Positions 1 through 20,626 of a stretch of DNA of 58,045 bases are shown one piece after another (position 1 is the stretch's first letter; the number at the start of each line of letters is the position of its first letter). The stretch lies in NCBI RefSeq assembly GCF_017471675.1, contig NZ_JAFUSK010000006.1, positions 1-58,045 on the forward strand. Direction: 5' to 3'. Under the pieces are notes generated by a model that saw only the letters and a program-made list of their open reading frames with translations, did no database searches and was not told where the DNA came from. Origin of the DNA: Pseudobutyrivibrio sp. (GTDB taxonomy: Bacteria; Bacillota; Clostridia; Lachnospirales; Lachnospiraceae). Made by a program: the position numbers and the translations under genes.

Positions 1-333
1 GTTACCAGTTAAAGAACCTAAGCCTTCCATTGCAATACCGTCACGGCCCATTTCATTCGGCAAAACTATTCTAAATAAAATATCATTGTACATACTGTAT
101 ATAGATGCATTTGCCGTTGTCCATCTAGTTGACCAAATGAAGAAAAAGAGCACTATCACAACAGCCAGTATTGCTATACCTGTCATATCTTTTCCGGTAG
201 CTTTCTCCATATGACTAAAAAAAGCTACTGCTCCAAAACCGAATAAAGTCAAAAAAATAGCTCCATATTTAAAAAAATTTGAATAGGAATCATTATCAAT
301 AAAAACCTTGTTTTTAAATAAATTTTTCTTCAT
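1..333 (-). CDS. Membrane protein downstream of the LXG-like protein (partial, 3' end outside window)
   Basis: An open frame of 111 codons runs off the left edge without a stop. It starts at an ATG behind a GAGAGG ribosome site. The N-terminus is lysine-rich (MKKNLFKNK). Two hydrophobic stretches follow, at about residues 25-37 and 52-67, the second containing ILAVVIVLFFFIW. The visible remainder is probably cytosolic or a loop. No family is recognised. It is the next gene after the putative T7SS cargo, 67 bp downstream with no terminator in between, so it is probably the distal end of the same transcript. Its position would suit an immunity protein or a secretion membrane component. Both are inference from position only. 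Confidence 0.7.
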   Translation of the reverse strand, partial: MKKNLFKNKVFIDNDSYSNFFKYGAIFLTLFGFGAVAFFSHMEKATGKDMTGIAILAVVIVLFFFIWSTRWTTANASIYSMYNDILFRIVLPNEMGRDGIAMEGLGSLTGN

Positions 334-400
334 CTTAATATCCTCTCAATTGTGTCCTTTTTTTGCCCCTCTGGTTCATTTATTAAGCTAAGATTTCTAC

Positions 401-1762
401 CTAACAAAACAGAGGTGAACGTGGTCTTGAATTTAGCTCTCTCAAGTTATTTTCGAAATTTTGTCCAAATAAACTTACTTTATAATTAAACTCACTAAAT
501 TGATAATGTATAGCGTTATTTGAATAAGAATTAGGCGGAATTTTCCCTCCCTTATCCATTGTTTTTTGTATCTTATCCTGGAACTTATATGTCTGTGATG
601 TAGATAATGCTCTACTTACAGGATTATATTGCTTAAATGCATCTCCCAAAGTTTTATGGCTCATGGCAAGTCCAACTGCAACATCAAAATCCTTCTGCAT
701 AGTTTTTAAACCTGTACCAACTGCCTTATAATATTTTGATGTTTCTTTTGTTAATCTAAAACCGCCTTTAAAACCAGCATTATATAATCCCTTAATGTCA
801 TCCACCAATCTTGTAGAATTAGGCTTTAAGCCTCTAATAGTTCCTGTAAATGATTTGTATAATCCTTCTCCACTTCCTAGTGAATTTATTTTATTAGCCA
901 TATTCGCAATAGAAATTGTATCTGTTACAAATTCTGCAGTATCTACAGCATCTGCTCCCACGTAACTAAGAGTATTTCCCAACTTAGAATCAAATCTTGT
1001 CAACCTAAGCCAATCTGATGCTTTATCGGTGTCTCCATATATTTTTGCCCAAGCTGGGTCTCCACCATTTCTTGCCTCTAATGCCTTTTTTGATGTATAT
1101 ATGTTTGCAAAAGCATTTACAACTCCTATAGCACCTGAAACAACAGCAGATATAGATACTATAGCTTCAAACAATCCTGCTGCCAACGAGAGCGGAAATG
1201 CTGCTAATAATATACATACTGATGCTGCAAATAATAAGGCGGCTCCTACAATCTGGCATAGTTCCTTTCCACCACCACACTCATAAAAATACTTCAGCGC
1301 ATCATACCCACTAGATATCTTATCGTGTACCCATACAGTTGCATCACAGAATAAATTGAATATTGGTCTTGAATTTTTAGCTTCTATACATAAGCTAATC
1401 ATCAATGCCTCTATTCCTTCTGCCGCTTTTATTTCACTATGGTTCTTCAAAAAATCTTCTTGATTGTTTTCAATTTTAGTGGCCACATCCAAATCAGCTT
1501 GAATGGCATGCGCCATTAAAACTCCAACATTTTTTGCAAATGTTGCGTATTCATTAGCCTTATCTGCTAACTGTTGTTTCTTTGCCTTTACATAATATTG
1601 AGCCGATTCCAAAACATCATTCACTCCTGCTGTAACGCCGCCGAAGGAATTTATAACATCATTCTGGAGGCTCTCATAATATGACTCCGCCTTAACCGCA
1701 AGTGTATTAGCGCTGTCTATAATACCTTGCAAATTATCATAATCAATTGTTAACTCTGCCAT
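401..1762 (-). CDS. Putative type VII secretion substrate, LXG-like architecture
   Basis: 453 aa. Residues 1-110 are mainly helical and polar, with the look of a WXG100/LXG-type targeting region. Residues 170-222 form a long hydrophobic, glycine/alanine-rich segment that could make two membrane hairpins. The remaining 230 residues are soluble and basic, and I recognise no toxin motif in them. There is no signal peptide. It follows a WXG100 gene and a small coiled-coil gene, the usual order for LXG cargo with its helper proteins in Firmicutes. RBS AGGAA precedes the ATG. Polymorphic toxins of this layout often carry the activity at the C-terminus, but that is not shown here. It could instead be a structural or adhesion protein. 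Confidence 0.65.
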   Translation of the reverse strand: MAELTIDYDNLQGIIDSANTLAVKAESYYESLQNDVINSFGGVTAGVNDVLESAQYYVKAKKQQLADKANEYATFAKNVGVLMAHAIQADLDVATKIENNQEDFLKNHSEIKAAEGIEALMISLCIEAKNSRPIFNLFCDATVWVHDKISSGYDALKYFYECGGGKELCQIVGAALLFAASVCILLAAFPLSLAAGLFEAIVSISAVVSGAIGVVNAFANIYTSKKALEARNGGDPAWAKIYGDTDKASDWLRLTRFDSKLGNTLSYVGADAVDTAEFVTDTISIANMANKINSLGSGEGLYKSFTGTIRGLKPNSTRLVDDIKGLYNAGFKGGFRLTKETSKYYKAVGTGLKTMQKDFDVAVGLAMSHKTLGDAFKQYNPVSRALSTSQTYKFQDKIQKTMDKGGKIPPNSYSNNAIHYQFSEFNYKVSLFGQNFENNLRELNSRPRSPLFC

Positions 1763-1780
1763 TTTATATTTCCTACTACT

Positions 1781-2266
1781 TTATTTTCTTGAAGCAGCAG
1801 CTGCTGCCGCTCTTTCTGCGGCCTGTCTTGCCGCTTCTTCAGCTAATCTTCTTAACTCAGCTGCAATCGCATCCTCTGTTGAGCGTATATTAGCATTGCA
1901 TGTCTGCAAGTCAGAATATAATCCATCTAGAATTCTATCAATTCTATTAATCTCGTTAGCTAGTTCATTTAAGCCGCTAGAAATAGATGAATCCGATGAA
2001 CTGGCTTTTTCCAGCTCATCATTAACCTGACTAGAGATTTTTCCAACACTGGAAGTACCTTTCATAGCACTTGCGAAATTATCAATTATTTTATTTCCCC
2101 ACTTATTAACTTCACCGTAGTTATCATCTCCAACGTTTGTTAAGTCCTTTTGGATTTTTACTACATCTGCTCTACGCTGCTTGTATTTACTTATTTCAGC
2201 TTCAATGTGTCTCTTCTGAGCTTGTAATGAAGCCAATCTTGATTGTAAGTCTGATAAGTAACTCAT
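1781..2266 (-). CDS. Small coiled-coil protein, DUF5082/YwqH-like T7SS partner
   Basis: 161 aa, almost entirely helical. Residues 1-45 and 105-160 form coiled coils, and the C-terminus is an alanine-rich charged helix (EEAARQAAERAAAAAASRK). A W-G pair sits near residue 56, between helices, like the WXG turn. It resembles the YwqH-type helper proteins found between WXG100 genes and LXG toxins in Bacillus-type T7SS loci. Such helpers are thought to form a complex with the cargo N-terminus. The start is the ATG behind AAGGAG. Family assignment is by size, composition and position, so it is moderately secure. Confidence 0.65.
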   Translation of the reverse strand: MSYLSDLQSRLASLQAQKRHIEAEISKYKQRRADVVKIQKDLTNVGDDNYGEVNKWGNKIIDNFASAMKGTSSVGKISSQVNDELEKASSSDSSISSGLNELANEINRIDRILDGLYSDLQTCNANIRSTEDAIAAELRRLAEEAARQAAERAAAAAASRK

Positions 2267-2281
2267 ACCTTTATTCTCCTT

Positions 2282-2593
2282 TTATGATTGTGTACTAGCA
2301 AGCTTTGCTATTTCTTCATCAGTCTTTATGTAGGCTGCTTGAGCGTCAACTAAAGCATCACGCAAATCATAAAGAACATCTGAGACATCTTCCAACTGCC
2401 TATAAATTTTTGTATAGTCCTTCTCAAACTGTTTTTTACCTTCACCTTGCCAATACATAAACAATGTTGATGTTGTCGTCTTAACACCATCAATGATTCT
2501 CTCATATTCTTTGATGCCACTTTCAAAATCTTTAATAACTTCACCAAATCGTTCACTATCAAGATGTTTTACCTGTTCATCATTAGCGCCCAT
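2282..2593 (-). CDS. esxA: WXG100 family secreted protein (EsxA-like)
   Basis: 103 aa helical hairpin protein with W48-Q49-G50 at the turn and a C-terminal Y88-I-K-T-D92 matching the YxxxD/E secretion signal of type VII substrates. I chose the ATG at 2593 over an in-frame ATG six codons upstream, because a perfect AAGGAGG lies 8 nt before it, inside the last codons of essC, whose stop is 1 nt away. Translational coupling to essC is therefore likely. WXG100 proteins dimerise and are exported through the EssC ATPase; by analogy this one is probably both cargo and co-export partner of the two genes downstream. Confidence 0.9.
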   Translation of the reverse strand: MGANDEQVKHLDSERFGEVIKDFESGIKEYERIIDGVKTTTSTLFMYWQGEGKKQFEKDYTKIYRQLEDVSDVLYDLRDALVDAQAAYIKTDEEIAKLASTQS

Positions 2594-2594
2594 C

Positions 2595-5500
2595 CTATTG
2601 TCCTCCTTCATAAACTACTTTTATCTTAGAAACATCCTGTCCCTTGAATAAATAAGCATCACCAAGCTCTATAGGCTTTTTATATTGTTTTGCTGCACCG
2701 TTAGGCAAATCAACATTCTTAATCGCACTAATATCTTCCATTGCAATCATTGTATTAATTTCCTTCACCTGTTTGAGCATCTCTGATGCACCAAAACCTG
2801 TGGCAGCATTTTCAACATCTGCAAATACAAAAAGTAGTTTCATATTCTTGTATGTCTTTACTATTCGCTTGTATACCTCCACTGTAGCCTTGCTAATTCC
2901 ATCAGTAGCAAATATATCCTTATTGTTTACAAGAATTGTAATTAATGGAAATGCATTAAGTGCATCAGCGCCGCCAGCCTTTACCATATCCATCCTTGTG
3001 ATAAGTTCTTGTTCTACCTCTTCTAATATGAGTTCAAAGTCATTCAAATCAACTGAATATTTTTCAACTATTCCCATTGAAGAAGCACTCTTTAATTTCT
3101 GTTCGAAGCTATCTATTACATAAACCTTAGAATCAAAATTAAAGATATTTTTCTGGAGATAATTCAATAAATACATAGCAAATGAAGACTTACCAAAGCC
3201 CTTACGACCTGTAATACCCAAAGTACAAGTATTTAATAAATCAAGCTCAACAAAATCGACTAAATTGTAATCAATACCAATTGGGACTACATAATTTTCA
3301 TTATCAAAGTAATTTGTCTTTACATAATCCAAATCAAGTACCTTTGGTACCTCTGGAATTCTTACAGCCTTTTCTGTAGGATTCTTACTATTGATAGATG
3401 CAATAAATTCTTTAATCTTTTGAACTCTGTCTATTTCCTTTTCACCCTCGAATGCAAGATATGTCTGCATTTCATATACAGTCTTATCAATTGAATATAA
3501 ACATCTACCTGGGACATTCTTTGGAGACATTCGGCATCTATCAAACAATGTGCTATATTCATCGCTCTGGTTACAATACAAGCAAATTCTATTTGCGAAA
3601 TTACTCATGTATTTATAACTGATTCCAGATGTTTGGATAGAAGTAAATATTAAACTAATACCAAGTGCTACACCTTCACGGCAAATATTTATTATGTCAT
3701 CCTCATATTCTCCATAGAGTTCTTTAAGGGCAAGGAAATTATCAACCATGATTATAATCTGTGGGATGTCTGTATTTCCTGCCTCTTTATAAGATGAAAA
3801 TGAAGTGATTCCCATATCGGCAAAACGCCCTTTTCTACGGACCATTTCCTTTCGAATCATTCTTATAAAATTCTTTAGCTTTTCATCATCTGCTGCAGAA
3901 ATAACACCACCAATATGATTCAAATCCGCAAATACATTCAGTGCCATAGAAGCAAAATCCAGAATGTACATATTAACCTCTGAAGGTCTGTAATTTGTAG
4001 CAACAGCCCTGATAATCATCTGCAATAGGTTTGTCTTACCATACTGAGATGAACCAATAATAATTGTATTACCACTTGAAATATCCAGCTTTGCCACACC
4101 CTGATACTGATTATCCGGGTCATCATAAATTCCCAAATCTATAACTACACTGATATCATCATGTGATTTATCAGAATCCGCATATACGATAATCTCTTCC
4201 AAAGGTGGAAGGCAAATTCCTGGCAATCTATTGATACCATTTTCACTACAATACTCAGCAATATAATTTGTTATTGCATCAAGCTGAGTCTCTGATTCTT
4301 CATCAGATTTTTTCTTCTTTCGTGTATATACCGGAGTATGCTTACCCGCTAAATCAAGTGAATATATAGTAAACGGTTTCTGTTGTGCACTTGCATCAAA
4401 AGTAGCTGGTGCTCCACTGTATGCAGACTGGAATAATTCAAATATCTCATTATTACCTACTTGCAAATATGCACGACCTGGCTCTTTAATCTCTGCTGCA
4501 ACTGGTGTCTTTAATACTTCATTACTGTCTTCCTTATTCTGAACCTTTAAGCAAAGCTTAAATTTAGAGTTTGACCAAATCTGTGCATCTACTACACCAC
4601 TAGGCTTCTGAGTTGCAAGAATCAAATGTACACCAAGGCTTCGACCTATTCGAGCTGCAGAAATCAACTCTTTCATAAACTCTGGCTGATCCATCTTAAG
4701 CTCCGCGAACTCATCTACAATAAGAATCAAATGTGGAAGCGGAATTTTTGCCTCTCCCTTTTTGAAGAGCTTTATATAGGCATCAATGTGGTTAACATCA
4801 TATTCTGCAAAAAGAGCCTGTCTTTTTCTAAGCTCGGCCTTAATTGATGAAAGTGACCTATTGATTTCTCGACCATCAATATTTGTAATAGCACCTATAA
4901 GATGGGGAAGATTCTTAAACTGGTTAACCATTCCACCACCCTTGAAATCGATGATTACAAAACCTACATCGTAAGGGTGAAATAATGTCGCCATCGATAA
5001 AATATATGACTGAAGTATTTCTGATTTACCTGAACCTGTTGTACCAGCCACAAGTCCATGTGGACCATGATGCTTTTCATTAAGGTCTAAGCTAACCACC
5101 TGACTTTTAGACTTTACACCAAGTGGGGCTGCCATAGATGTATATACCTGTGACTCTTCCCAATTCTTCGACAAGTTTATATCTTCAACATTGAGAATAT
5201 TCATAAGCTCAAACAATGTAATATTTTTTGTTAAAGATCCTTCTAAGCTTACTTCCTCGCAATATACAGGTGCTAATTTATTTGAAATAAAAGCTGCTTC
5301 ATTGTTATTTACAACTTCATATTCAAATCTAGAAACCAAGTTTTTATCGTCCGTATCTGTCACAATTCCCCTTGTGCCTTCAATCTGAATCACGCTATTA
5401 CATCCGCTTGGCAATAGTTCCTTGTGCTCTTCAAAGAAGATAAATGAAACTCCTACCTGATTAGCATAATCAATAAACTTTGATATTGGATGATTCTTTA

Positions 5501-7127
5501 TGCCATTATCTCTGTAAACCATGATTACATAGTTTGGATGAGTCTGCTCAGCTGTCTCTCTACTAGAAAGCTCCTTGTACAAGAAATCAAATAGAATACT
5601 TCTACTATCAGAATCACATACAATATTTCTCATATTAAGCTGCTCGTTTTTTATATGTGGTAAAAATCTGAGCCACTTAAAGTCCTCTTCATCATCTTCA
5701 TCTAAAACGTAGAACAACTTAGTATCTGTGTAATACTGTCTTACTGCCAAATCAGTTGTTAAAGTCTTAATAAATGCATATAAATCATTTCTATTACCAA
5801 TTACGCCAACAGCATTATTGTTCTTTAAATCAAGTGTAATTGGCACATTATGAACATCCCTATACTGAGCCTGAAGTTCGGTAGGAATCTTCATTAGCTC
5901 ATCTGTACAGTTAAGCTCTTCTTTCTTTTTAATGCTTAATTTCTGAACTGCATTTTTCTTTCCGTTACCAAGACGTACTACTAAATAATCTTCATCCTTT
6001 GTACTTCTATCAAAAAGATAATCTGAAAAATCCCTAACAAATGCCTTTTCCTTGCTAATAGAATAATATGTATCATTCAATAAATGTTCTTCATTGCTCC
6101 GGCATTCTTCTATAAAAGTCTTCTTGTTTGCTATATATTCTGTATAGCTTGCTATTCGCTCATCAGATTCCTTTTTATAATTCTTCCTAGCATTAATAAT
6201 ACTTGTTACTGATGTAACAATACCTATACTCATGGAAATTACGCTAATCCATATATACGCACCGCCACCATTTCCCATTATTCCTCTAAGAACAACTGTT
6301 ACAGCAAGCATAATAATAGCTGGTAATAACTGCATTACAATATTTCCTTCAGGCTTCTGTGGCTCCGCTGGAGGATCTAAAATTTCAATCTCATCATCTG
6401 GTAATACGGCTTTAAAACGTGGATTTCTGTTAAATTTAGGATATTCCAATTCATTTACAGAATCCTCTACCTTTTTACTAACAATAGAGTTGATATTCAC
6501 TATTTTGGCTGAGTTACAGTAAAGCATATTATCTTTGAGGCACATTCCAAAAGTAGCAAATGATATAAAATCATTTTCAGCAATACCAACACTTTTTTCT
6601 ATTTTAATGCCATTTACTCTAACGCCATATTTAGTATTGTTATCTGTAACAACATACCCGTTTTTCGTTCGTTCAATGGATATAAAATCGCTACCAATAT
6701 ATTCATCATTTATCTGAACATTGCAATCACTTCCACCGCCAACTAAAACTCTCGATTGATTTGTTAAGTCTAACGCTAAATCATAAGATTTTTTCTCATA
6801 GTCAAAATCAATCAATAACTCAACACTAAATAATTCTATACCAGAAGACTGATAACAAACAGAAACTGTATCTCCATGCTGTAATTCCTTGGTGATTAAC
6901 TTTCTTACATCACCTTGGCTCAAATAAAGGTTATCCGAGCAAACTACTACCCACTTTTCATTTCTAGAAAATACTATTTCAAATTCTTCAAAAAAATTGT
7001 CTTTGTTAAGTCTAATATCACTCTCAATTCCAGTACCTACTCTAAGTGTTTGAACTTCAGGTGATATTTCTATCTCCCTATATATGTTTTTTTTTGATAA
7101 TATAATTCTATATCTGTTAGTTTCCAT
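2595..7127 (-). CDS. essC: EssC-type FtsK/SpoIIIE ATPase of the type VIIb secretion system, two N-terminal FHA-like domains
   Basis: About 1510 aa, the full EssC length. Two FHA-like domains cover roughly residues 5-105 and 110-205. Two membrane helices follow at about 263-285 and 290-315, then three FtsK-like ATPase modules. Module 1 is intact (GTTGSGKS near 695, VDEFAEL near 804). Module 2 has GSSQYGKT near 1025 but VDNF in place of VDEF. Module 3 has GRKGFGKS near 1307 with a degraded Walker B (ILVNNKD). EssC is the motor that recognises and exports WXG100 cargo. I prefer the ATG at 7127; a TTG three codons upstream (7136) overlaps the preceding stop region. It lies 10 bp after the EsaB-like gene. 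Confidence 0.95.
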   Translation of the reverse strand: METNRYRIILSKKNIYREIEISPEVQTLRVGTGIESDIRLNKDNFFEEFEIVFSRNEKWVVVCSDNLYLSQGDVRKLITKELQHGDTVSVCYQSSGIELFSVELLIDFDYEKKSYDLALDLTNQSRVLVGGGSDCNVQINDEYIGSDFISIERTKNGYVVTDNNTKYGVRVNGIKIEKSVGIAENDFISFATFGMCLKDNMLYCNSAKIVNINSIVSKKVEDSVNELEYPKFNRNPRFKAVLPDDEIEILDPPAEPQKPEGNIVMQLLPAIIMLAVTVVLRGIMGNGGGAYIWISVISMSIGIVTSVTSIINARKNYKKESDERIASYTEYIANKKTFIEECRSNEEHLLNDTYYSISKEKAFVRDFSDYLFDRSTKDEDYLVVRLGNGKKNAVQKLSIKKKEELNCTDELMKIPTELQAQYRDVHNVPITLDLKNNNAVGVIGNRNDLYAFIKTLTTDLAVRQYYTDTKLFYVLDEDDEEDFKWLRFLPHIKNEQLNMRNIVCDSDSRSILFDFLYKELSSRETAEQTHPNYVIMVYRDNGIKNHPISKFIDYANQVGVSFIFFEEHKELLPSGCNSVIQIEGTRGIVTDTDDKNLVSRFEYEVVNNNEAAFISNKLAPVYCEEVSLEGSLTKNITLFELMNILNVEDINLSKNWEESQVYTSMAAPLGVKSKSQVVSLDLNEKHHGPHGLVAGTTGSGKSEILQSYILSMATLFHPYDVGFVIIDFKGGGMVNQFKNLPHLIGAITNIDGREINRSLSSIKAELRKRQALFAEYDVNHIDAYIKLFKKGEAKIPLPHLILIVDEFAELKMDQPEFMKELISAARIGRSLGVHLILATQKPSGVVDAQIWSNSKFKLCLKVQNKEDSNEVLKTPVAAEIKEPGRAYLQVGNNEIFELFQSAYSGAPATFDASAQQKPFTIYSLDLAGKHTPVYTRKKKKSDEESETQLDAITNYIAEYCSENGINRLPGICLPPLEEIIVYADSDKSHDDISVVIDLGIYDDPDNQYQGVAKLDISSGNTIIIGSSQYGKTNLLQMIIRAVATNYRPSEVNMYILDFASMALNVFADLNHIGGVISAADDEKLKNFIRMIRKEMVRRKGRFADMGITSFSSYKEAGNTDIPQIIIMVDNFLALKELYGEYEDDIINICREGVALGISLIFTSIQTSGISYKYMSNFANRICLYCNQSDEYSTLFDRCRMSPKNVPGRCLYSIDKTVYEMQTYLAFEGEKEIDRVQKIKEFIASINSKNPTEKAVRIPEVPKVLDLDYVKTNYFDNENYVVPIGIDYNLVDFVELDLLNTCTLGITGRKGFGKSSFAMYLLNYLQKNIFNFDSKVYVIDSFEQKLKSASSMGIVEKYSVDLNDFELILEEVEQELITRMDMVKAGGADALNAFPLITILVNNKDIFATDGISKATVEVYKRIVKTYKNMKLLFVFADVENAATGFGASEMLKQVKEINTMIAMEDISAIKNVDLPNGAAKQYKKPIELGDAYLFKGQDVSKIKVVYEGGQ

Positions 7128-7137
7128 AAGTTTCAAC

Positions 7138-7389
7138 CTACTCCGTGAAATTTATTACTGTTCCATTTCTTACACCAAAATCAGATAGTTTTTTACTCCC
7201 CTTTAATAATGCAAATGGATTTTCTGCTTTTAAAAAACATTTCTTCTGATCCGATGTATCTATCCCTAACTCATACGCCGTATTAAGTCCTATTACCAAA
7301 TCATTTGCAGTTATATCAAGTGGAATTTCTAAATCTATGCTTTCATTCTTTTTAATATTATTAAAAATAATTACTGCTGAATTTTCCAT
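7138..7389 (-). CDS. esaB: EsaB/YukD-like ubiquitin-fold protein
   Basis: 83 aa with the length and strand pattern of the YukD/EsaB ubiquitin-like family: an N-terminal beta hairpin, a short helix around ANDLVIGLNTAYEL and a terminal strand ending NGTVINFTE. In Bacillus and Staphylococcus this small cytosolic protein is encoded with EssC and is needed for, or modulates, secretion; in actinobacteria the fold is fused to the EccD channel. It lies 10 bp after the CpaE-like gene and immediately upstream of essC, the conserved neighbourhood of the family. RBS AGGTG precedes the ATG. Assignment rests on size, fold pattern and context. Confidence 0.8.
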   Translation of the reverse strand: MENSAVIIFNNIKKNESIDLEIPLDITANDLVIGLNTAYELGIDTSDQKKCFLKAENPFALLKGSKKLSDFGVRNGTVINFTE

Positions 7390-7398
7390 TTAAAACAC

Positions 7399-8460
7399 CT
7401 ACATTACTAAAAAAGCAACCTTTCTCATATTGTTATTTGCTTCCAAATTCTTTGGTTTTACCAAATCAACATCATTAATCATTTCTATGTATTCATTAAT
7501 GCTAAATTTCGATATTACTTCCGTTGCCAACAATGCATTAAATTTGCTTCTTTCAAACTTATTACAAATGAATATATATTTTTGAGCGGTAATACCATTA
7601 ATATTATTAACAAGATAATTAGTGCTATTAACTGCTGCAACAGATTGATCTGTTACCAAGATTACTTTATCTGCTGCATCCAGCATATTCAGTTTTTCCT
7701 CACTGAAAGTAGCCTCAGCATCAATAATTATGAAATCATAATCACTATTCTTTTTTGCTGATAAAGCAATTTTTAAGAATATCGAAAAATCAATTCCTAG
7801 AGATGGTAATGCAGCTTTAAATTCAGGAAGATAATCAAATCCATCATTTTTGATTTCAGATTTAATATCTAAAAATACATTATCAGTAGGACTGTAAAGT
7901 GCCGAATATATACTAGCTCCTGTTATTTGTTCTTTATCCTCTAAGAGATATTGAAAATTCTGCAACATTGCTGCATTTATATACAATACCTTCTGATACC
8001 CAGCCACCAAACTGGCAGCTAATCCCATGGCAATAGTTGTTTTTCCTACTCCGCCACATGCAGATGTAACAAGTACAATCTGTGTTTCCTTCTTTTCTAC
8101 TGCGCCTCCCACAAGCTCTGATGCACTCTTAGCAACTACTTCACTAAATATTTCCATAATACTGGTATATTTATATAGTTTAGTAATGCTTAGATCACCT
8201 GTAGCACCATCATCAATATTTTCAGACATAACAAATACATTTTTTATATCATGTCTTTTTATCGAATTATCATATAAATCTTCTGACACGATTAGTATCG
8301 CTGCGCTCTTCGGTTCTGAAAAATATTCGGCAAAATAATTTCTATCTGTTATTATTTCTAAATCTATATTATTCAAATACTCGTTTATAAATTTATATTG
8401 TAAAGGAGCAATATAATTAACATCTGTATCTGCAATTATTACTTTTGGATTCGCCATCAT
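7399..8460 (-). CDS. CpaE/MinD-like ATPase with N-terminal receiver-like domain
   Basis: About 353 aa. The first 110 residues look like a degenerate response-regulator receiver (KVIIADTDVNYI at the first strand). The rest is a ParA/MinD-type ATPase with the P-loop ACGGVGKTT at 134-142 and IIIDAEATFSEE as Walker B. The signature lysine of the deviant Walker A (KGGxxGKT) is Cys135 here. CpaE-like proteins position Tad pili or secretion machines at defined cell sites. No Tad gene is nearby, so localisation of the T7SS is the likely role (inference). RBS AAGG lies before two adjacent ATG codons; either may be used. Confidence 0.8.
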   Translation of the reverse strand: MMANPKVIIADTDVNYIAPLQYKFINEYLNNIDLEIITDRNYFAEYFSEPKSAAILIVSEDLYDNSIKRHDIKNVFVMSENIDDGATGDLSITKLYKYTSIMEIFSEVVAKSASELVGGAVEKKETQIVLVTSACGGVGKTTIAMGLAASLVAGYQKVLYINAAMLQNFQYLLEDKEQITGASIYSALYSPTDNVFLDIKSEIKNDGFDYLPEFKAALPSLGIDFSIFLKIALSAKKNSDYDFIIIDAEATFSEEKLNMLDAADKVILVTDQSVAAVNSTNYLVNNINGITAQKYIFICNKFERSKFNALLATEVISKFSINEYIEMINDVDLVKPKNLEANNNMRKVAFLVM

Positions 8461-8468
8461 ACACCTTC

Positions 8469-9398
8469 CTATTCAACCCTAAAATCACTATTTGCAAGCT
8501 TAAGCGTATCACCTGGATTTAATGGCATTCTTTGACCTACCTCAACACGAGCTCCGTTTACATACGTTCCGTTTGCGCTGCCTTCATCCATTACATAAAA
8601 AACTCCATTTTGTCTAATAACTCTACAGTGTCTTCTGCTTATTGCACTGTTGAAATCAATGACTTTATCCACTAATTCAGCCTTCTTACCAATCAATACA
8701 TCTTCTTCAGATATTTTTAATTCAAATGGATAAGGACTATCACACGCTATAAGCTTTAGGCAATTTAGATTTCCTGACATTCCTGCGCTTGATGGCATTG
8801 TTTGATTTATATTCGTAGTCTGCGTTTGTGCTGCTGGAACAATTTCTCTACATTTCTGATATATTAACTCCATTGGTAATCCTGCTTGTATATCCGCAAG
8901 AATAGCAGCCAATTGTTCACTTGGCATAGCACTGACACTATTAAGTAACTCACATATTAATTCTTTAAGGTTATGCTCAAAATCTTCTACATCCATGTAC
9001 AATTTCTTCTCTATAGGTATGTACATCATTTTTACTTGCATGGTGTTTCTATCTACAAATATTTTGCGCTTCTCTAAATCTATACTTTGACATGTTAGGA
9101 ATCCGTTTTCCTTAACCTTCTTGATTATGCCCAAAATATCTGCTGCAATCGAAATGGCTGTTTCAGATTTCATACTTTGCATCATTACGTCTAAAGATGT
9201 ATAGTTCTCTCCTAAATAGCAAAGTGATGTCTGACCATTTCTTGTTATTTTTACGCATTTTAAAAAACCATCATTGCTTTGATTCTGAAGTACTTTATAA
9301 TCTGTCTCTAGAAATGGCACTTGATTATTAATCACGTATTCTAAATTATTTCCATATACCAATTCTGTTATTACATTGTTCTCTATCAATCTATTCAT
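8469..9398 (-). CDS. FHA-domain protein with DUF6382-like N-terminal domain
   Basis: 309 aa, cytosolic, no membrane helix. The C-terminal ~95 residues are a complete FHA domain with SRRH at 254-257 and NGTYVNG at 276-282, the residues that grip phosphothreonine. The N-terminal ~190 residues match what is called DUF6382 in clostridial FHA proteins. Its later part (helix, then IDL..KIFVD..TMQVKMMYIPI) reads like a kinase fold stripped of catalytic residues, similar to the EssB/YukC pseudokinase. If so, it may replace EssB as the cytosolic adaptor. This is an inference. It sits between the phospho-acceptor protein and the CpaE-like gene. Confidence 0.8.
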   Translation of the reverse strand: MNRLIENNVITELVYGNNLEYVINNQVPFLETDYKVLQNQSNDGFLKCVKITRNGQTSLCYLGENYTSLDVMMQSMKSETAISIAADILGIIKKVKENGFLTCQSIDLEKRKIFVDRNTMQVKMMYIPIEKKLYMDVEDFEHNLKELICELLNSVSAMPSEQLAAILADIQAGLPMELIYQKCREIVPAAQTQTTNINQTMPSSAGMSGNLNCLKLIACDSPYPFELKISEEDVLIGKKAELVDKVIDFNSAISRRHCRVIRQNGVFYVMDEGSANGTYVNGARVEVGQRMPLNPGDTLKLANSDFRVE

Positions 9399-9407
9399 TA
9401 CTATTAC

Positions 9408-9869
9408 CTATATATTTTTGTCGGAGCCTGTGATTTTAATATCATCCTGCATCTGAAATACCACGTTTTCATTTCCTGTATTAAGCACCGTTGTCTCATC
9501 TGATGCAAGCACAGTGGTAGCATCATTATCCATAAGCACTGTAGTGGCATCTGAGTCTATAAGTACCACCGTTTCATCGTTGCTTAACACTGTGGTAGCA
9601 TCTTCATTTTCTTCTTTTTTCAGGAGCTTTGAAGTTCCCCAGCTTATCTTAGCCTTTTCCTTATCTCGTTCCTTTGATGAGTCTTTTTTTGATTTACGCC
9701 CTGCTCCAACACCTGTTAGCACTCTGAATGAATGGGGAATATCAAAAACTATAAATATTACAACCGCTGCAATTACCAGTACTATAGCGACAAGCAATAG
9801 TAATATCGACAAATTATCATAAAATTGTGTTTGTTCTGTTATCGCTTCAACATTTGAATTTATATTCAT
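9408..9869 (-). CDS. Single-pass membrane protein with five TTVL-type threonine motifs, putative kinase substrate
   Basis: 153 aa. A short N-terminal segment is followed by a hydrophobic helix at about residues 21-43, then a lysine-rich linker (55-85) and a tail with five near-identical motifs: ATTVL 91-95, TVVL 100-103, ATTVL 108-112, ATTVL 117-121 and TTVL 126-129, each after Asp or Glu and about 9 residues apart. By charge distribution the tail is cytosolic. Acidic-T-T-x-hydrophobic sites are what FHA regulators such as GarA carry for PknB-type kinases. It sits directly between the kinase gene and an FHA gene, so it is probably a phosphorylation-dependent docking platform. No family name is recognised. 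Confidence 0.8.
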   Translation of the reverse strand: MNINSNVEAITEQTQFYDNLSILLLLVAIVLVIAAVVIFIVFDIPHSFRVLTGVGAGRKSKKDSSKERDKEKAKISWGTSKLLKKEENEDATTVLSNDETVVLIDSDATTVLMDNDATTVLASDETTVLNTGNENVVFQMQDDIKITGSDKNI

Positions 9870-9877
9870 ATCATTTC

Positions 9878-11560
9878 CTACTCTAACATTGAAATAGTTT
9901 GTTTTGCTTTTTCTATATTTGTTGCTAGTTCTTCCTCAAGCTCAACAACTCTATCAGTCTTTTCTATGCCTGAACCATCAATATCTTCCTTAACATGCTT
10001 TTCTATATCCATTAGGGCAAGCTGCATGTCTGATACCGATACTCCGGCTTTTTTGAACTGTGGAGCATTAACACAAATCTGCGATGCCATCTCTTTATAG
10101 ATTGCAAGAGCTGTGTTTGCATTATCTGATTCAGTAATATTGCCATCACATAACGAAACTAAGTCATTCCAATAATCCTTGAAGGTTACTTCACTGTCTC
10201 CAGCCTTGTCCACTGAACCCAGCGTCACATAATACTCTGCAATAGCACCAAGCAACTTTGCTCGTTCCTTCTGATTTGCATTCAGATTTCCCTCAGTAGC
10301 CTTGTTAAACCAATATGCTGACTGTTGCTTATTGCCTTCACCTTCGTAGCTATAATAATATGCAAGACCTAATCTATATGCGAACAAGCTATAGCTATCA
10401 ACATCCTGCGCTAGTATTTGCTCGTATGTATTCTTACCACTTGTCCTAATTAACAGTTCTCTAAGCTCTGCTGCTTCATCTGCCGAAAAAATCTCATCAG
10501 ATAAATACACATTATCAATAAGACTATTGTATGAATCCACCTGAGAAGGATCTACAGCAATAGAATTAATCAAAGCTTCTTTTGTATCAGCTGCTGTTGC
10601 TCCTCTATTAGCATTATCCAAAAGCATTTCGTGACTGACTGTCTTTATATGGTTTCCGTAGCTATATGACGAAAACGAACCTATTCCAGCTGCCAGTGCA
10701 AGCACAGCGGTTATAGCAAAAATAGCAAGCTTTGTTCTTTCTTTCTTTCGATATGTTTCATCTAATTCATCATAATGCTCAAGAGCATATAGAAGCTCAT
10801 CATCATTCTGATATCTTTTTTCTGGATCTAGCTGTGTACATTTTGCAACAATCTGCTCTAATCCTGTGGATAAGGATTCATTCCAGTACCTTATATTTCT
10901 AATCTCATAAGGTGGCTCACTTGGGTTCTTACCGGTCACAAGATGATATATTGTTGTTCCTAAGCAATATATATCCGTCCTTGCGTCTGTCTGTCCCTGT
11001 CCACCAAACTGTTCTGGAGCTGCATAGCCTCTTGTTCCAAGACATGTAGTATCTTCTACGTTCGTATCCTTATACTGTCTAGCCGTTCCAAAGTCAATAA
11101 GGACTATTGTTCCATCAGGCTTTAGCATTATATTTCCAGGCTTTAAATCCCTGTATATAATTGGTGGATTTTGAGAATGTAAATAACCAAGCACATCGCA
11201 AAGCTGCTTTGCCCATTCTATAACTGCCTCCTGAGGTTGAGGACCATATTCATCCACTGCTTTCTTTAGGGTATTACCCTCTATATAATCCATTACAATC
11301 AAAATCGAATCGTCATAATCAATGATATCGATGATGCTTGGCAGGTTGGGATGATTAAGATTTTTCAACAGCTCTGTTTCTGTCTTTATGCTATTAAGAT
11401 TTATCTCTGAAGCAGCTGCTGCATCTTTTCTGATTTCCTTTATTGCCCATTGTTTATTAGCCCTTTCATTCATTGCCAAATAAACAACGCTCATTCCACC
11501 TTGGCCTATTTTATTTAATATTTTGTATTTATTATCTATTACTGAACCTATTTCCAACAT
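9878..11560 (-). CDS. Membrane Ser/Thr protein kinase with extracellular TPR-like domain
   Basis: 560 aa. An active-looking Hanks kinase fills residues 10-265: glycine loop IGQGGMSVVY, K41 (WAIKEI), D138 in YRDLKPGN, D156 in IDFG, GTRGYAAPEQ and DIYCLG. One membrane helix lies at about 278-300. Outside is a ~260-residue helical, TPR-like domain instead of the PASTA repeats of cell-wall PrkC kinases. The kinase-TM-helical ectodomain order mirrors EssB/YukC, whose kinase fold is dead. It ends 9 bp before the TTVL-motif gene and starts 4 bp after the phosphatase. Likely substrates are the threonine motifs in the two neighbouring membrane proteins. Confidence 0.93.
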   Translation of the reverse strand: MLEIGSVIDNKYKILNKIGQGGMSVVYLAMNERANKQWAIKEIRKDAAAASEINLNSIKTETELLKNLNHPNLPSIIDIIDYDDSILIVMDYIEGNTLKKAVDEYGPQPQEAVIEWAKQLCDVLGYLHSQNPPIIYRDLKPGNIMLKPDGTIVLIDFGTARQYKDTNVEDTTCLGTRGYAAPEQFGGQGQTDARTDIYCLGTTIYHLVTGKNPSEPPYEIRNIRYWNESLSTGLEQIVAKCTQLDPEKRYQNDDELLYALEHYDELDETYRKKERTKLAIFAITAVLALAAGIGSFSSYSYGNHIKTVSHEMLLDNANRGATAADTKEALINSIAVDPSQVDSYNSLIDNVYLSDEIFSADEAAELRELLIRTSGKNTYEQILAQDVDSYSLFAYRLGLAYYYSYEGEGNKQQSAYWFNKATEGNLNANQKERAKLLGAIAEYYVTLGSVDKAGDSEVTFKDYWNDLVSLCDGNITESDNANTALAIYKEMASQICVNAPQFKKAGVSVSDMQLALMDIEKHVKEDIDGSGIEKTDRVVELEEELATNIEKAKQTISMLE

Positions 11561-11563
11561 AAT

Positions 11564-12355
11564 TTATACCGAAATAATAAGACTTGAAATATTGTCGTTC
11601 TCCCCTCTTTGCATTGCCATAAGCGCTAGTTGTTCCAGCCCTTTTGGCCGAGAGGCTATTGATACTATCTCTTGATTACTAATCTTTCTCCAGAATCCAT
11701 CTGAGCATAAAATAAAGTGACAACCTTTACGAATTTTCCCCTCGAAAAATTCTGGAATAACTTGTTCTGAAGCCCCTACACACTGAAGTAACACACTTTT
11801 CTTATCGCTACGTTCAGCCTCTTCTACAGTCATTCTCCCTAGCTCAATCTGTTGTTGCACATAACTTTGATCGTGTGAAATCATTTCAATAGATTTTTTA
11901 TCAAATATATACCCTCTAGAATCTCCTACATTCATAGAAAGATATATGTCACCGATTATAATAATTGCCACCACTGTTGTTCCTAAACGGATATGATTAT
12001 CTTCACCATAAGCTTTAAGCTTATGGTTCATTTCAGTCACAAGTTGCTTCCAGCTTAGTTCAATTTTTTTCTTTAAAGCTTCTTTGTCATAGCTAAAAGT
12101 ATCACCGCCTAAAGAAATGGTTTTATCATTATCAATCAATAATGTGGGAAAAATATTTTTAAACCATTCATCCATTCTATCTATGAATGAGGAGCTTGCT
12201 ACTTCTCCGCATGATAGCCCGCCCATTCCATCACAAAGAACACCCAGGCAAATATTTCCAATTCCATTGACACTAGCTTGTTTTACAAGTAATGCATCTT
12301 GATTAACTTCTTTTTTTATACCCTTATCTGAATAGGCATCTACTAAAAAACCCAT
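11564..12355 (-). CDS. PP2C-family Ser/Thr phosphatase
   Basis: 263 aa from the ATG at 12355, chosen because AGGA lies 8 nt upstream; a longer frame would run into the preceding gene. It shows the metal-binding PP2C motifs in order: VNQDALL, LCDGMGGLSCGEVAS, GTTVVAII, NVGDSRGYIF, SHDQSYVQ and GENDNISSLI. Such enzymes remove phosphate from the targets of PknB-type kinases and are normally co-encoded with them, as here (4 bp before the kinase gene). It should reset the T7SS phospho-circuit. It is cytosolic with no membrane segment. Confidence 0.93.
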   Translation of the reverse strand: MGFLVDAYSDKGIKKEVNQDALLVKQASVNGIGNICLGVLCDGMGGLSCGEVASSSFIDRMDEWFKNIFPTLLIDNDKTISLGGDTFSYDKEALKKKIELSWKQLVTEMNHKLKAYGEDNHIRLGTTVVAIIIIGDIYLSMNVGDSRGYIFDKKSIEMISHDQSYVQQQIELGRMTVEEAERSDKKSVLLQCVGASEQVIPEFFEGKIRKGCHFILCSDGFWRKISNQEIVSIASRPKGLEQLALMAMQRGENDNISSLIISV

Positions 12356-12365
12356 AATTCTATTC

Positions 12366-13868
12366 CTATGCTTGATATTCAAATTCTTCATTAGACAGCT
12401 TAATAACGTCACCTGTATTTAACAGTACTGAACGTTCGCTCTCTAATTTCATACCATTTATGTATGTGCCGTTTGTTGAACTACAATCTTGTATATACAC
12501 ACCATTTCTGCCATAACTAATGATTGCATGTTTACGACTAATTGAACTATTATTCTCAATGCAATAATCTGAATGTAATGCATCTTTTCCAAGAATGAAT
12601 TGCTGTTTATTGAGCGCAATTCTCTCTGATGTTCTTTTTCTAACAAGAGTTCCCAAATTTGAAGGTGCGTTTAATTCGCCACTTAATAATGTAGTCTCAC
12701 CATCATTATTAAAAGATGTCTTACTAAGTATGGTTGTTTCATCTGATGAACCACCATTTGCTCGATTCATGCTATCTACTGGAATTGAACTTTTAGCACC
12801 TGTCATTTTTATAGAATTCTTATCAATATCCATGCTGAATACTGGTCCATTGTAGGTTGCCTTTTCCTTCTTAGGGCTTTTTTCGTCCTTCTTAACTACA
12901 GCAATAATAATTATTGCTATAACCGCAATTATTAATGCGGCAGCGCCTACACATATTCCTATAAAAAGAGTATTTGATGAGCTTTTCTTTGTATCAACAG
13001 ATTGTGCTTTTAATTCTTCTTGTTGATCAGTTGGCTCCACTTCTTCCTGCTTAGGAGTTGTATTCACCTGAGAATACTTGACACCAAGTCCATCTAAAAT
13101 CCTGACTATTTTTGTAGAATCTAATGAATATGCTGTTCCATTTTCATCAACATACATATTCAAGCCAATAACATAACCATTTTCATTAACGAGTGGTCCA
13201 CCATTATTGTTAAAATCGAATGCAGCATTACTCTCTACTACCTGAACACCATCCTGTTGCTCCATTGCCAGGATTTCACCCGATGCTACACGAATATCCT
13301 GCTCATTGTAATAAATCTTTGATGAGTCGTAACTAACAGCCGCATCAAATCCAAGCTGAAAAACAGCGTCTCCCACAGAATATGGAAGATTTTCAACATC
13401 ATAATTCTTGTTTGTTAGAATTGATAAAGGCGTTTTAGTAAATATTGGCTGTGGTAGCTGAAGTACAGCCATGTTCAACTCTTTACTTTCAGTAAGCACT
13501 GTTGCAGTTAACGCAACATCATTTTCAATGGCTACCTGTGTTTCTACTTGATAATTGCTTTTATTATCGTCTGTAATAGAAATGCCATAATATTCATAAG
13601 CTTCCTGCATAGTTTCCTGGCTTGGATTAACAATTTGTTCACTTGTAATTACATATTCCGTTCCTTCTGAATCTCCAATCAAAAATCCAGCTCCACCTAT
13701 TACAACATGATTACCAGTTTCTGCGTCAACAATCACAGTGTTAACTTGAACCATTCCTGATTTAGCTGATTCAGCTGTTGTGTTCTCCTTTGCGTACACT
13801 GGAATAACTGTCATTACAGCCATTCCTAAAGTTAATACTAATGTGCTAATCTTTCTTAATACTTTCAT
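12366..13868 (-). CDS. Trypsin-like pseudoprotease with membrane helix and cytosolic FHA domain
   Basis: 500 aa from the ATG at 13868 (GGAG 6 nt upstream; earlier in-frame ATGs lack a ribosome site). A signal peptide ends near VYA26. Residues 35-265 have the HtrA/trypsin fold, but each catalytic residue is replaced: His by Gln79 (VITSEQIV), Asp by Asn132 (LNMAVLQL) and Ser by Asn222 (NNNGGPLVN). A membrane helix follows at 300-325. The cytosolic tail carries two acceptor-like sites (DETTIL, GETTLL at 376-395) and an FHA domain at 410-500 (SRKH, STNGTYING). It is the first gene of the T7SS operon. It probably binds rather than cleaves something outside and signals inward. Confidence 0.88.
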   Translation of the reverse strand: MKVLRKISTLVLTLGMAVMTVIPVYAKENTTAESAKSGMVQVNTVIVDAETGNHVVIGGAGFLIGDSEGTEYVITSEQIVNPSQETMQEAYEYYGISITDDNKSNYQVETQVAIENDVALTATVLTESKELNMAVLQLPQPIFTKTPLSILTNKNYDVENLPYSVGDAVFQLGFDAAVSYDSSKIYYNEQDIRVASGEILAMEQQDGVQVVESNAAFDFNNNGGPLVNENGYVIGLNMYVDENGTAYSLDSTKIVRILDGLGVKYSQVNTTPKQEEVEPTDQQEELKAQSVDTKKSSSNTLFIGICVGAAALIIAVIAIIIIAVVKKDEKSPKKEKATYNGPVFSMDIDKNSIKMTGAKSSIPVDSMNRANGGSSDETTILSKTSFNNDGETTLLSGELNAPSNLGTLVRKRTSERIALNKQQFILGKDALHSDYCIENNSSISRKHAIISYGRNGVYIQDCSSTNGTYINGMKLESERSVLLNTGDVIKLSNEEFEYQA

Positions 13869-13911
13869 CTCTATCTCCATTTCATTTAATATATACTGCC
13901 TCATCTAAAAG

Positions 13912-13923
13912 CTGATATATCAG
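13912..13923. promoter_or_regulatory. Perfect 12-bp palindrome upstream of the T7SS operon
   Basis: CTGATATATCAG is a perfect inverted repeat about 44 bp before the first T7SS gene and about 15 bp past the T-rich end of the preceding terminator. It is placed where an operator or promoter element of the secretion operon would lie. No clear -35/-10 pair could be fixed here. Confidence 0.3.
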
Positions 13924-13939
13924 TTCTTAAATCAAACAG

Positions 13940-13985
13940 TATATAAAAAGAATCACGCTACGGCAGACCCAATTTGTCTGCCGTA
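13940..13985 (-). terminator. Rho-independent terminator of the Ig-repeat surface protein gene
   Basis: A 10-bp perfect stem (TACGGCAGAC at 13959-13968 with its complement at 13976-13985) and 7-nt loop lie 12 bp past the stop. A T-rich stretch (TTCTTTTTATA on the minus strand) follows. It separates the surface gene from the T7SS operon. Confidence 0.85.
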
Positions 13986-13996
13986 ACGTATATTAA

Positions 13997-17719: not shown

Positions 17720-17772
17720 TTGTAAAACTACCCTTTCTAAAATTTCGTGTTCACATTTTGAACACAAACAGT

Positions 17773-17801
17773 AATTTATCATAGAAATTGACTTGCTTCA
17801 A
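17773..17801 (-). promoter_or_regulatory. Promoter of the Ig-repeat surface protein gene
   Basis: On the minus strand, TTGAAG (17796-17801), a 17-nt spacer and TAAATT (17773-17778) match a sigma-A promoter. Transcription would begin near 17765, leaving about 46 nt of leader before the TTG start codon and excluding the ATG at 17782. Confidence 0.6.
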
Positions 17802-17961: not shown

Positions 17962-18738
17962 TTATTGTACTTTTTCAACGTCTATCATCACACCATGAAC
18001 AGTAAATCTCATTTCTGATGAAGAACATGTGGAAAGGGTAACAATTTGATCAGAGGCTTTAACAGCTATATCATCTGCATCAATATATGAATTAGTCTTA
18101 AGCGTCCCAATATATTCTTCAAATTCAGGGGAATCTGAATAAGGCACTGTATAAACAAAAGATGCCGGGTCCGTATCAAAATAAGAAAAGATTTCAAATC
18201 TCATTTTCTTATTAGGTGTTATTATCTGAAAGTATTTGTGCTCGTCATAATAATTATCATTTGATTTATAATATTTTAAAGTACCAAACATTGACAGGTT
18301 ACGCATATTATGACCATAGATAATATTATGACTATCAGTAAAATCAGGAAGATTATAGCCCTCTAAGAAAATGGAGCCTGCTTTAGCATATTCTTTATTA
18401 ATGTCCCTTCTTAGATACCCCTCATCATCACCACTATACATTATTGGATAGCTTATATCTGTCCCTTCTACATAAATCCATCCAACCACATCAGGATTAA
18501 TCTTAGTCAAGCTGTCAAAATCCACATCTAACATATCCTGCCAGCTTGTGCTAGCTGTATATTCCAGATTACTTTCCGTTATATTAGCATATAATTGATT
18601 TGTTTTCTCATATCCCATGATAATATAAACAAGTCCTGCAATTGATGAAAATACAATCAACAAACCTACTGCTAAAATAATCTTGTAATTAAATATTGAT
18701 TTCTTAGTAGTCTCTTTTAGTTCCTTATCCTCGTTCAT
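17962..18738 (-). CDS. srtB: Class B sortase
   Basis: 258 aa. One N-terminal membrane helix (about 20-41) is followed by a sortase domain with catalytic H143 (IIYGHN), C238 (TLSTC) and R244 (EMRFTVHG). The long NPDVVGWIYVEGT entry and the TLSTC motif mark class B. Such enzymes cleave NPxT(G/N)-type signals and attach proteins to peptidoglycan or a pilus base. The NPVTG-bearing protein two genes upstream is the obvious substrate. It is the last gene of the operon, 6 bp after the membrane-anchored surface protein; the start has only a distant GAGAGG. Confidence 0.93.
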   Translation of the reverse strand: MNEDKELKETTKKSIFNYKIILAVGLLIVFSSIAGLVYIIMGYEKTNQLYANITESNLEYTASTSWQDMLDVDFDSLTKINPDVVGWIYVEGTDISYPIMYSGDDEGYLRRDINKEYAKAGSIFLEGYNLPDFTDSHNIIYGHNMRNLSMFGTLKYYKSNDNYYDEHKYFQIITPNKKMRFEIFSYFDTDPASFVYTVPYSDSPEFEEYIGTLKTNSYIDADDIAVKASDQIVTLSTCSSSEMRFTVHGVMIDVEKVQ

Positions 18739-18744
18739 AATTTG

Positions 18745-19779: not shown

Positions 19780-19781
19780 AA

Positions 19782-20609: not shown

Positions 20610-20626
20610 CGCTTGCTCCTTTCTTA

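Follow-up and report, generated by a model that had tools for sequence, protein, structure and literature searches.

A type VII secretion locus of Pseudobutyrivibrio with putative phosphothreonine control of its export ATPase

The window analysed here is a whole stretch of 58,045 nucleotides, positions 1 to 58,045 and thereby the entire length of contig NZ_JAFUSK010000006.1 in the Pseudobutyrivibrio sp. assembly GCF_017471675.1. Positions 1 to 17782 are confirmed as a type VII secretion system (T7SS) locus of a Pseudobutyrivibrio-like genome. The locus resembles the T7SSf and T7SSj subtypes, and its sequence suggests that recruitment or assembly of the export ATPase EssC could be controlled by threonine phosphorylation, a reading to which we give about an even chance. 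The genes form a single minus-strand run from 17782 down to base 1, as judged from the open reading frame (ORF) list and Pfam/NCBIfam matches, in the order Ig-repeat protein, trypsin-like/FHA protein, PP2C phosphatase, kinase, tail protein K, adaptor J, MinD/TadZ-like ATPase, YukD-like protein, EssC, WXG100 protein, a 161-amino-acid (aa) helical protein, a 453-aa cargo candidate and a transmembrane (TM) protein cut by the contig end. The run contains both an EssC/EccC ATPase (TIGR03928) and a WXG100 protein (PF06013, 35.8 bits against a cut-off of 27.3), and among named records the nearest relatives of its EssC are two from Pseudobutyrivibrio, with 85% and 80% identity. A kinase, a PP2C phosphatase, three FHA proteins, a TTVL protein, an EsaB-like protein and a WXG100 protein had been predicted from the sequence alone to lie in one minus-strand run; all are there, and to them must be added the Ig-repeat protein (13997-17782) and the MinD/TadZ-like ATPase (7399-8460), which the original prediction had left out.

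Candidate phosphosites and their readers

The tail protein (9408-9869, minus strand like every gene of the run) is TsxK-like by topology and place. It comprises 153 aa, with a single TM helix and an acidic tail bearing five T-x-[VIL]-L sites, four of them TTVL and one TVVL, a number reached by none of 3000 composition-preserving shuffles of that stretch. The repeats had been predicted as TTVL motifs; the repetition is real, and the true form is T-x-[VIL]-L, in the tail as well as in the trypsin-like/FHA linker. At other loci the tail protein often has no TTVL and carries ETELL, ATMVL, ETQLL and the like instead. The rule for the repeat is [acid]-T-x-[VIL]-L, the first Thr and the Leu at +3 being near-invariant in aligned sites while the second Thr is variable. 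When 1601 ORFs of the collected loci were put through the shuffle test, tail proteins ranked at the top; the test also flagged, at p up to 0.01, kinase domains, an EssC TM region, an Ig-repeat protein and some unrelated ORFs, and the pattern by itself is therefore no proof. Two further tests, on tail dipeptides and on aligned sites, do not presuppose the Thr. Across 35 distinct tails, Thr stands two positions ahead of [VLI]L in 136 of 199 dipeptides and directly ahead in 71. In the aligned rows of the trypsin-like/FHA protein, linker site 1 has Thr in 34/35 and Leu at +3 in 34/35, with Thr at the second position in 20/35, and its first Thr is never replaced by Ser, Asp or Glu; linker site 2 has Thr in 28/35 and Leu in 28/35. 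(Loci L094 and L129, and L093 and L121, overlap, so some genes enter twice into the row counts for sites, FHA pockets and catalytic triads.)

Some FHA domains prefer Ile or Leu at the +3 position. FHA domains bind phosphothreonine with selectivity at +3, as described in PMC4037201, which together with the conservation of the sites makes the first Thr of each site a likely phosphosite. The tail protein is likely to be both the substrate of the kinase and a ligand of FHA domains. A literature search covering titles and the beginnings of abstracts showed, among the papers listed, none on such threonine-motif arrays in T7SS, and the site rule looks new.

The kinase (9878-11560) is a TsxD-like membrane Ser/Thr kinase with a Hanks domain (PF00069, 172 bits), one TM helix and an ectodomain. 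The VAIK-type Lys, xRDLKPxN and DFG motifs are present in 22/22 copies from the genus, and the activation loop of these 22 kinases reads EDT[T/I/V]CLGT (T in 20, I in one, V in one), a form similar to the tail and linker sites. The C-terminal part gives a Sel1 match in Pfam at E 0.029, below the cut-off (the T7SSj kinase has TPR). The ectodomain had no sure match among PDB sequences, and its candidacy as an EssB ectodomain was dropped, the sequence search having given nothing sure. Two more Pkinase matches are present in the same genome besides the locus kinase; a 429-aa protein of this genome (L157:4146-5435, contig C18) begins with a kinase domain and ends in a part that is P-loop/MinD-like by eye. 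The opposing enzyme is a TsxF-like PP2C/PPM phosphatase (11564-12412; PP2C_2, 37 bits). Its motifs NxD, DGMGG and GTT, as well as [VI]GDSR, are kept in 23/23 genus rows, which hold one gene twice (L094/L129), and the C-terminal DN is present in the 22 complete rows.

The trypsin-like/FHA protein (12366-13904; FHA 61.6 bits, Trypsin_2 34.9 bits) consists of a trypsin-like ectodomain, a TM helix, two T-x-[VIL]-L sites and an FHA domain; an internal Met at 13868 is a plausible real start of the ORF. The ectodomain is a pseudoprotease: in the window protein NNNGGPL replaces GNSGGPL and the His position has no His. Across 35 aligned rows, the window protein has lost the catalytic triad and the genus proteins the GNSGGP serine, while three proteins (L137:2146-4002, L146:4050-5858 and L071:13790-15418) have intact-looking triads, keeping the serine and the matching His and Asp. 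Since these three retain the triad, the ancestor of the pseudoprotease may have been a protease sensor. Beside other EssC types, the FHA proteins L068:12505-14067 and L077:9884-11599 have, by eye, a von Willebrand-like ectodomain in place of the trypsin-like one, and the former has a TVIL site between TM helix and FHA domain; the ectodomain of the membrane FHA protein seems exchangeable.

Which FHA domains could read a phosphothreonine was assessed from their pocket residues. Adaptor J keeps its pocket (columns GKSRHNGT), and J and the trypsin-like/FHA protein of the window both carry the reader pocket S, R, H, N, G-T, with Lys for Arg. With that Lys allowed, the pocket is intact in 33/34 trypsin-like/FHA rows and, by a strict rule, in 24/35 J domains, compared with 5/20 other FHA domains and 2/96 FHA domains of EssC. 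EssC itself (2595-7136; TIGR03928, 1208.9 bits against a cut-off of 778.4; FHA, 26.7 bits) has two FHA domains whose pocket columns, GTEEEDNL in FHA1 and GGGSFYGV in FHA2, are degenerate, for which reason it was set aside as a candidate and is probably not the reader. S/T, H and N are kept together in 21/71 rows of EssC FHA2, all of them from loci without J, and in 0/35 rows from loci with J. The presence of J was rejected as the sole reason for pocket loss, FHA2 being degenerate in 15/36 J-negative rows as well; on these alignments, the link between J and FHA2 loss is a correlation only, because the rows fall in few clades. The EssCs of loci L113, L125 and L126, of about 1300 aa, have no N-terminal FHA domains, and the phospho-cassette is kept in their genomes.

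Adaptor J (8469-9398) is a TsxJ-like protein combining DUF6382 and FHA (44 and 59.3 bits), with no TM helix by hydropathy. In a fold search with full-length J, the 50 matches listed were all FHA-containing chains, and DUF6382 was therefore predicted on its own. The resulting model resembles, in a structure search, the small pseudokinase fold of the EssB/YukC type, and hhalign gave a probability of 57% for DUF6382 against EssB/YukC with a 42-row alignment (20 shuffles, one without result). At sequence level, window J matched only FHA, DUF6382 and Yop-YscD_cpl in Pfam (hmmscan, E up to 0.05), the YukC model PF10140 remaining unmatched, and a phmmer search of PDB sequences with DUF6382 gave nothing sure (best E 0.075). 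From the predicted model, DUF6382 is likely an EssB/YukC-like pseudokinase and a stand-in for EssB.

YukC/EssB (PF10140) itself was found in 0/29 genus genomes, with B. subtilis positive as control, and EsaA (TIGR03929) in 0/29 above the cut-off of 122; weak EsaA matches in 26/29 genomes (best 53.7 bits) extend to G797 and G801, which have no EssC. It had been proposed that EssA, EssB and EsaA functions were either replaced or encoded past the left edge. Replacement holds in part, for EssB, by way of the predicted DUF6382 fold. A location of EssB or EsaA past the edge was discarded: the edge ORF is a neighbour of the cargo gene, EssB is absent from the 29 genomes and EsaA never exceeds the cut-off; EssA was not searched for. 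A second DUF6382-FHA protein in the same genome (L156:2090-3220, contig C18), with EKTVLLSE before its FHA domain, adjoins a prepilin peptidase, a TadE-like protein and a T2SSF protein, that is, a Tad pilus cluster. Strong DUF6382 matches of this kind occur in 26/29 genus genomes, whether or not EssC is present. Tad pilus clusters may be the source of both J and the TadZ-like ATPase.

Distribution of the cassette and of EssC

EssC relatives were collected from 150 and 396 family genomes and 393 class genomes, partly overlapping sets, and kinase relatives from 29 genus genomes; neighbourhoods were scanned with profiles made from the window proteins, and a scan of genome contigs gave 10 loci. 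Duplicate loci (L060, L082, L087 and later L155) and short loci (L001-L030) were excluded before counting, and near-copies were kept (e.g. L033/L034, L037/L039, L092/L093 and L096/L097). With presence scored at E up to 1e-60, 19 of the 29 genus genomes have EssC and 21 the kinase: 19 have both, eight neither, two the kinase only and none EssC only. The two kinase-only genomes are 82-83% complete. A co-occurrence table of this kind has a chance probability of about 1e-5 (hypergeometric, by hand, genomes treated as unrelated). Absence of the kinase from most homologous loci had been named beforehand as an outcome that would count against phosphothreonine gating; in the genus this outcome is not seen, and the wider family is less clear, a kinase being found in 13 of 17 genomes.

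Those 17 family genomes were picked mainly because no kinase was seen beside EssC (window's EssC clade). In 13 of them a homologous kinase could be aligned as far as residue 400 or further, and in nine of these it lies on another contig than EssC; in four of the 13 (G711, G793, G105 and G065) the kinase contig also has an EssC match. Within the window's EssC clade the commonest core is J, TadZ-like ATPase, YukD-like protein, EssC and WXG100 protein, with exceptions such as L045, L047, L109, L110 and L112, and the kinase adjoins this core in part of the loci only. Among 14 kinase-centred loci (L141-L154), PP2C, kinase and a TM protein with at least one site stand together in L141-L149, three of these TM proteins being single-site; L150 has the PP2C gene and no site-bearing TM protein directly after, and L151-L154 are without the trio.

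The histories of kinase and EssC differ. In the other 21 genus locus sets the kinase is 63-87% identical to that of the window, whereas EssC is 28% identical in a fragment and otherwise 39% to 85%, with one set lacking EssC. The 22 genus kinases form one clade with a support of 99 in a tree that kept all 64 rows and in which long branches meet among distant rows. The EssC tree has 47 rows, rows below 1050 aa having been excluded and then 39 of 86 EssC rows, five of these being genus rows. EssCs of the genus do not form one clade: the starred branches force at least five changes with 16 of 21 genus rows kept, and a single genus clade is rejected (log-likelihood 669 lower, p-AU 4e-65), with which a quick tree of all 86 rows agrees. 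Because the kinases form one clade and the EssCs do not, the cassette seems to be resident in the genus while EssC modules are exchanged, although a cassette moving repeatedly between EssC types within the genus only would be expected to give the same trees.

The same data bear on an alternative that is unlikely but carries some weight, namely that kinase, phosphatase and tail protein form a general envelope-signalling cassette, for cell wall or gene expression, that merely neighbours secretion genes. The single clade of genus kinases beside scattered EssCs would fit such a cassette, as would the kinases on another contig than EssC in nine of the 17 family genomes, some of them tens of kilobases (kb) from contig ends. 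Against it, no EssC-positive genus genome lacks the kinase and 8/29 lack both; the gene that follows the tail protein is of T7SS type in 22/22 genus loci; and the two further Pkinase matches of the window's own genome could cover general tasks.

A related cassette was found in the Agathobacter rectalis DFI.5.28 record NZ_CP143948.1. It comprises an Ig-repeat protein, PP2C, a kinase 46.7% identical to that of the window, a TM protein of 139 aa that bears DETTVL...PTEVL...DETTVL, and an FHA protein in which GTTVL precedes the FHA domain; EssC lies about 24 kb from the cassette on the same circular record, across the record start. The record is titled a plasmid, yet holds the RNA polymerase beta gene, rplL, rplJ, nusG and secE, and for that reason looks like a chromosome piece or a misassembly.

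A proposed switch and its alternatives

From genes, motifs, conservation, co-occurrence and a predicted fold we infer the phosphorylations and contacts, their order and their connection with export in the following model of phosphothreonine control. The kinase would sense an extracellular signal and phosphorylate each site at its first Thr; the sites are similar to EDTTCLGT in the kinase's own activation loop. Once phosphorylated, the tail would serve as a multivalent landing strip for the FHA domain of J, whose pseudokinase half would grip the degenerate FHA domains of EssC, as YukC does with YukB, and so bring EssC to the tail. The pseudoprotease-FHA protein may bind further copies of itself as well as the tail in a TIFA-like fashion and reinforce the cluster, which the TadZ-like ATPase may help to position and PP2C would dissolve. 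Export of WXG100 protein and cargo would follow cluster formation. More tentatively, the system might be read as the product of a particular history, in which an EssB pseudokinase without its membrane part was joined to an FHA domain, the kinase-phosphatase-tail cassette was inherited vertically as a resident, and export ATPases and cargo were exchanged horizontally. EssC would in that case reach its membrane site only after a dedicated kinase had phosphorylated the multivalent T-x-x-L tail, and the constitutive, phosphorylation-free EssB-EssC contact of T7SSb would have been turned into a switch.

Several observations weigh against this model. The FHA domains of the window carry Lys where the classic motif has Arg. 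The margin of EssB over ordinary kinases in the structure search is small, the 50 VIA matches listed spanning a near-tied 11.4 to 12.9, and the hhalign probability falls to 10% with a 12-row DUF6382 alignment. J and the TadZ-like ATPase are present in only 5/22 genus locus sets, window included, and J cannot be the only bridge to EssC, because EssC FHA2, where present, is degenerate also in sets without J. Three genus EssCs lack N-terminal FHA domains in genomes that keep the cassette; the EssCs of G490, G819 and G817:C100 align to that of the window only from residue 228. Four of the 17 family genomes have no kinase reaching residue 400 (G552, G107, where it reaches 356, G188 and G821, an Anaerocolumna). 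T-x-[VIL]-L is also found inside the kinase domain, which is folded, and in some unrelated ORFs; the first-Thr position of the 199 tail dipeptides is also occupied by Ile (15), Ser (9), Glu (6) and Asp (4), and linker site 2 lacks Thr in 7/35 rows and Leu in 7/35. Topology, TM helices included, was read from a simple hydropathy scan.

Some of these points lend themselves to a different account, in which the T-x-[VIL]-L repeats serve as docking peptides that need no phosphorylation, with EssC, YukD or the TadZ-like ATPase as examples of a partner, or else form a structural tail, and the kinase acts elsewhere. The hydrophobic residues at +2 and +3 are indeed conserved as strongly as the Thr, which is itself substituted in a minority of tail sites. 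We nevertheless consider such docking quite improbable: site 1 keeps its Thr in all but one of 35 rows and never has Ser, Asp or Glu, as the specificity of FHA domains for phosphothreonine predicts, the sites adjoin an FHA domain in the same chain, and a similar motif forms the kinase activation loop.

Remaining genes and relation to known systems

The run begins with a TsxI-like Ig-repeat protein (13997-17782; Big_3_3, 34.9 bits) of 1261 aa with a C-terminal TM helix, a candidate envelope-spanning part, likened to TsxI through the published component text (PMC11217815). A relative is found in 19/22 genus locus sets, window included, mostly as the first cassette gene, and because of this recurrence the run is taken to extend to 17782. 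The MinD/TadZ-like ATPase (7399-8460; AAA_31, 51.8 bits, and CbiA), which is TsfV-like, lies between the YukD gene and J, and adjoins J in most loci of the window's EssC clade. It is followed by the YukD/EsaB ubiquitin-like protein (TsxB; 7138-7389; PF08817, 37.4 bits) and, beyond EssC, by the WXG100 protein (TsxA; 2282-2611), whose TIGR03930 score of 38.3 bits is below the cut-off of 44.85. Upstream of the T7SS run, a minus-strand surface cluster at 17962-29245, likely a sortase pilus from translations judged by eye, holds sortase-like genes at 17962-18738 and 28364-29245 as well as several large secreted proteins, of which one has a von Willebrand-like region and two have LPxTG-like C-terminal signals.

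At the cargo end, the 161-aa helical protein (1781-2266), a candidate cargo partner or second hairpin protein, has unspecific coiled-coil matches only and no WXG100 match in Pfam. Its homologues occupy the same place in L031 and L036, and the run has a single tail protein (T7SSe has a second WXG100 protein, TseA2, and TseH). The 453-aa candidate cargo (401-1762) has a helical N-terminus, two hydrophobic helices and no family match; homologues cover about the first 300 residues in L031, L032 and L033 and most of the length in L036 and L034. The left edge of the window is the contig end, which cuts the last ORF (1-333), a TM protein and candidate immunity protein of the cargo by its likeness to a pair in L036, two tandem TM proteins beside the homologous cargo gene to which it is 43% and 40% identical. 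The conserved N-terminus of the cargo and the TM protein next to it, duplicated in L036, give 401-1762 and 1-333 the look of a polymorphic toxin with its immunity protein.

Garrett, Higginson and Palmer (2024) define T7SSc to T7SSj, and their text already proposes phosphothreonine control, with a comparison to type VI secretion (T6SS), for such component sets (PMC11217815). The core idea is therefore not new, and the interpretation offered by the original prediction is partly supported and largely anticipated in print: kinase, phosphatase, putative sites and FHA readers do form a conserved set, and it was EssC as reader that failed, on its pockets. The same text cites the action of the IreK kinase on T7SSb transcription in Enterococcus; our literature search showed, among the papers listed, no experimental test of phosphothreonine control in these T7SS subtypes. 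As described there, T7SSj comprises a WXG100 protein, a YukD-like protein, EssC with FHA, a kinase, a PPM phosphatase, Ig-repeat protein I, DUF6382-FHA protein J and TM-tail protein K, and T7SSf has a TadZ-like ATPase and J, with no kinase reported. The window shares with T7SSj the components A, B, C, D, F, I, J and K together, without H and with a single tail protein, and differs in its degenerate EssC pockets, those of TsjC being reported as conserved, and in its additional TadZ-like ATPase and trypsin-like/FHA protein. With T7SSf it shares the TadZ-like ATPase, PPM phosphatase, DUF6382-FHA, WXG100 and YukD-like proteins and a weak-pocket EssC; unlike T7SSf, it has a kinase (9878-11560), and its J has no TM helix by hydropathy where TsfJ has two. 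Compared with the published component text, the window is a variant between T7SSf and T7SSj and is assigned to neither, since it departs from T7SSj in one tested feature and from T7SSf in two. By analogy with the window's relatives, the missing kinase of T7SSf could be explained by a cassette on another contig.

That the locus is an ordinary published T7SSe/T7SSj locus with nothing more to explain is something we think improbable. The component set A, B, C, D, F, I, J, K does agree with the T7SSj text, yet degenerate EssC FHA domains are unlike published T7SSj, the TadZ-like ATPase is given in the text of PMC11217815 for T7SSf only, the words 'trypsin' and 'TTVL' have no occurrence in its main text, and 'pseudokinase' is applied there to EssB only. 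Phosphothreonine reading by EssC's own FHA domains, as originally predicted, is highly improbable in spite of the conserved pockets reported in PMC11217815 for T7SSd, e and j and the S/T, H and N kept in 21/71 FHA2 rows of other EssC groups, given the two degenerate window pockets, the 0/35 rows in J loci and the kinase-bearing genus genomes whose EssC has no N-terminal FHA.

Threonine phosphorylation is known in T6SS from PpkA, PppA and Fha. The window likewise places a kinase and an FHA protein around a secretion machine, but the machines are unrelated, and the window has its site array on a dedicated tail protein as well as a pseudokinase adaptor; the Discussion of PMC11217815 treats an Agrobacterium T6SS case. 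TIFA is an animal cytosolic adaptor of innate immunity. It is an FHA protein that binds its own phosphothreonine (PMC10865109), and it shares with the trypsin-like/FHA protein a ligand Thr and an FHA domain in one chain, which permits head-to-tail assembly; no kinship is claimed. In T7SSb, YukC holds YukB in B. subtilis (PMC9600267), and the EssB/YukC-EssC/YukB pair described there shares with the window, as predicted here, an arrangement in which a pseudokinase fold faces the ATPase's degenerate FHA domains. The difference is that EssB is a membrane protein with an ectodomain, whereas the window has a soluble pseudokinase joined to an FHA domain whose pocket is kept; EssB and EsaA, both T7SSb components, are above cut-off in 0/29 genus genomes.

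Four things are new here: the rule for the sites, the EssB-like adaptor, the rejection of the window EssC as reader and the resident-cassette pattern. A general published suggestion is thereby turned into named residues and a wiring plan, with a likely phosphosite, FHA domains able and unable to read it and a possible stand-in for EssB, and DUF6382 gains a predicted fold and role. Should EssC indeed reach its membrane site only through a phosphorylated tail, the unlinked cassette would explain the T7SSf puzzle of a phosphatase without a kinase. In Pseudobutyrivibrio, a regulatory cassette seems to stay while the secretion motor is swapped, and the related cassette in the human gut commensal Agathobacter rectalis makes the question testable in an ordinary anaerobe.

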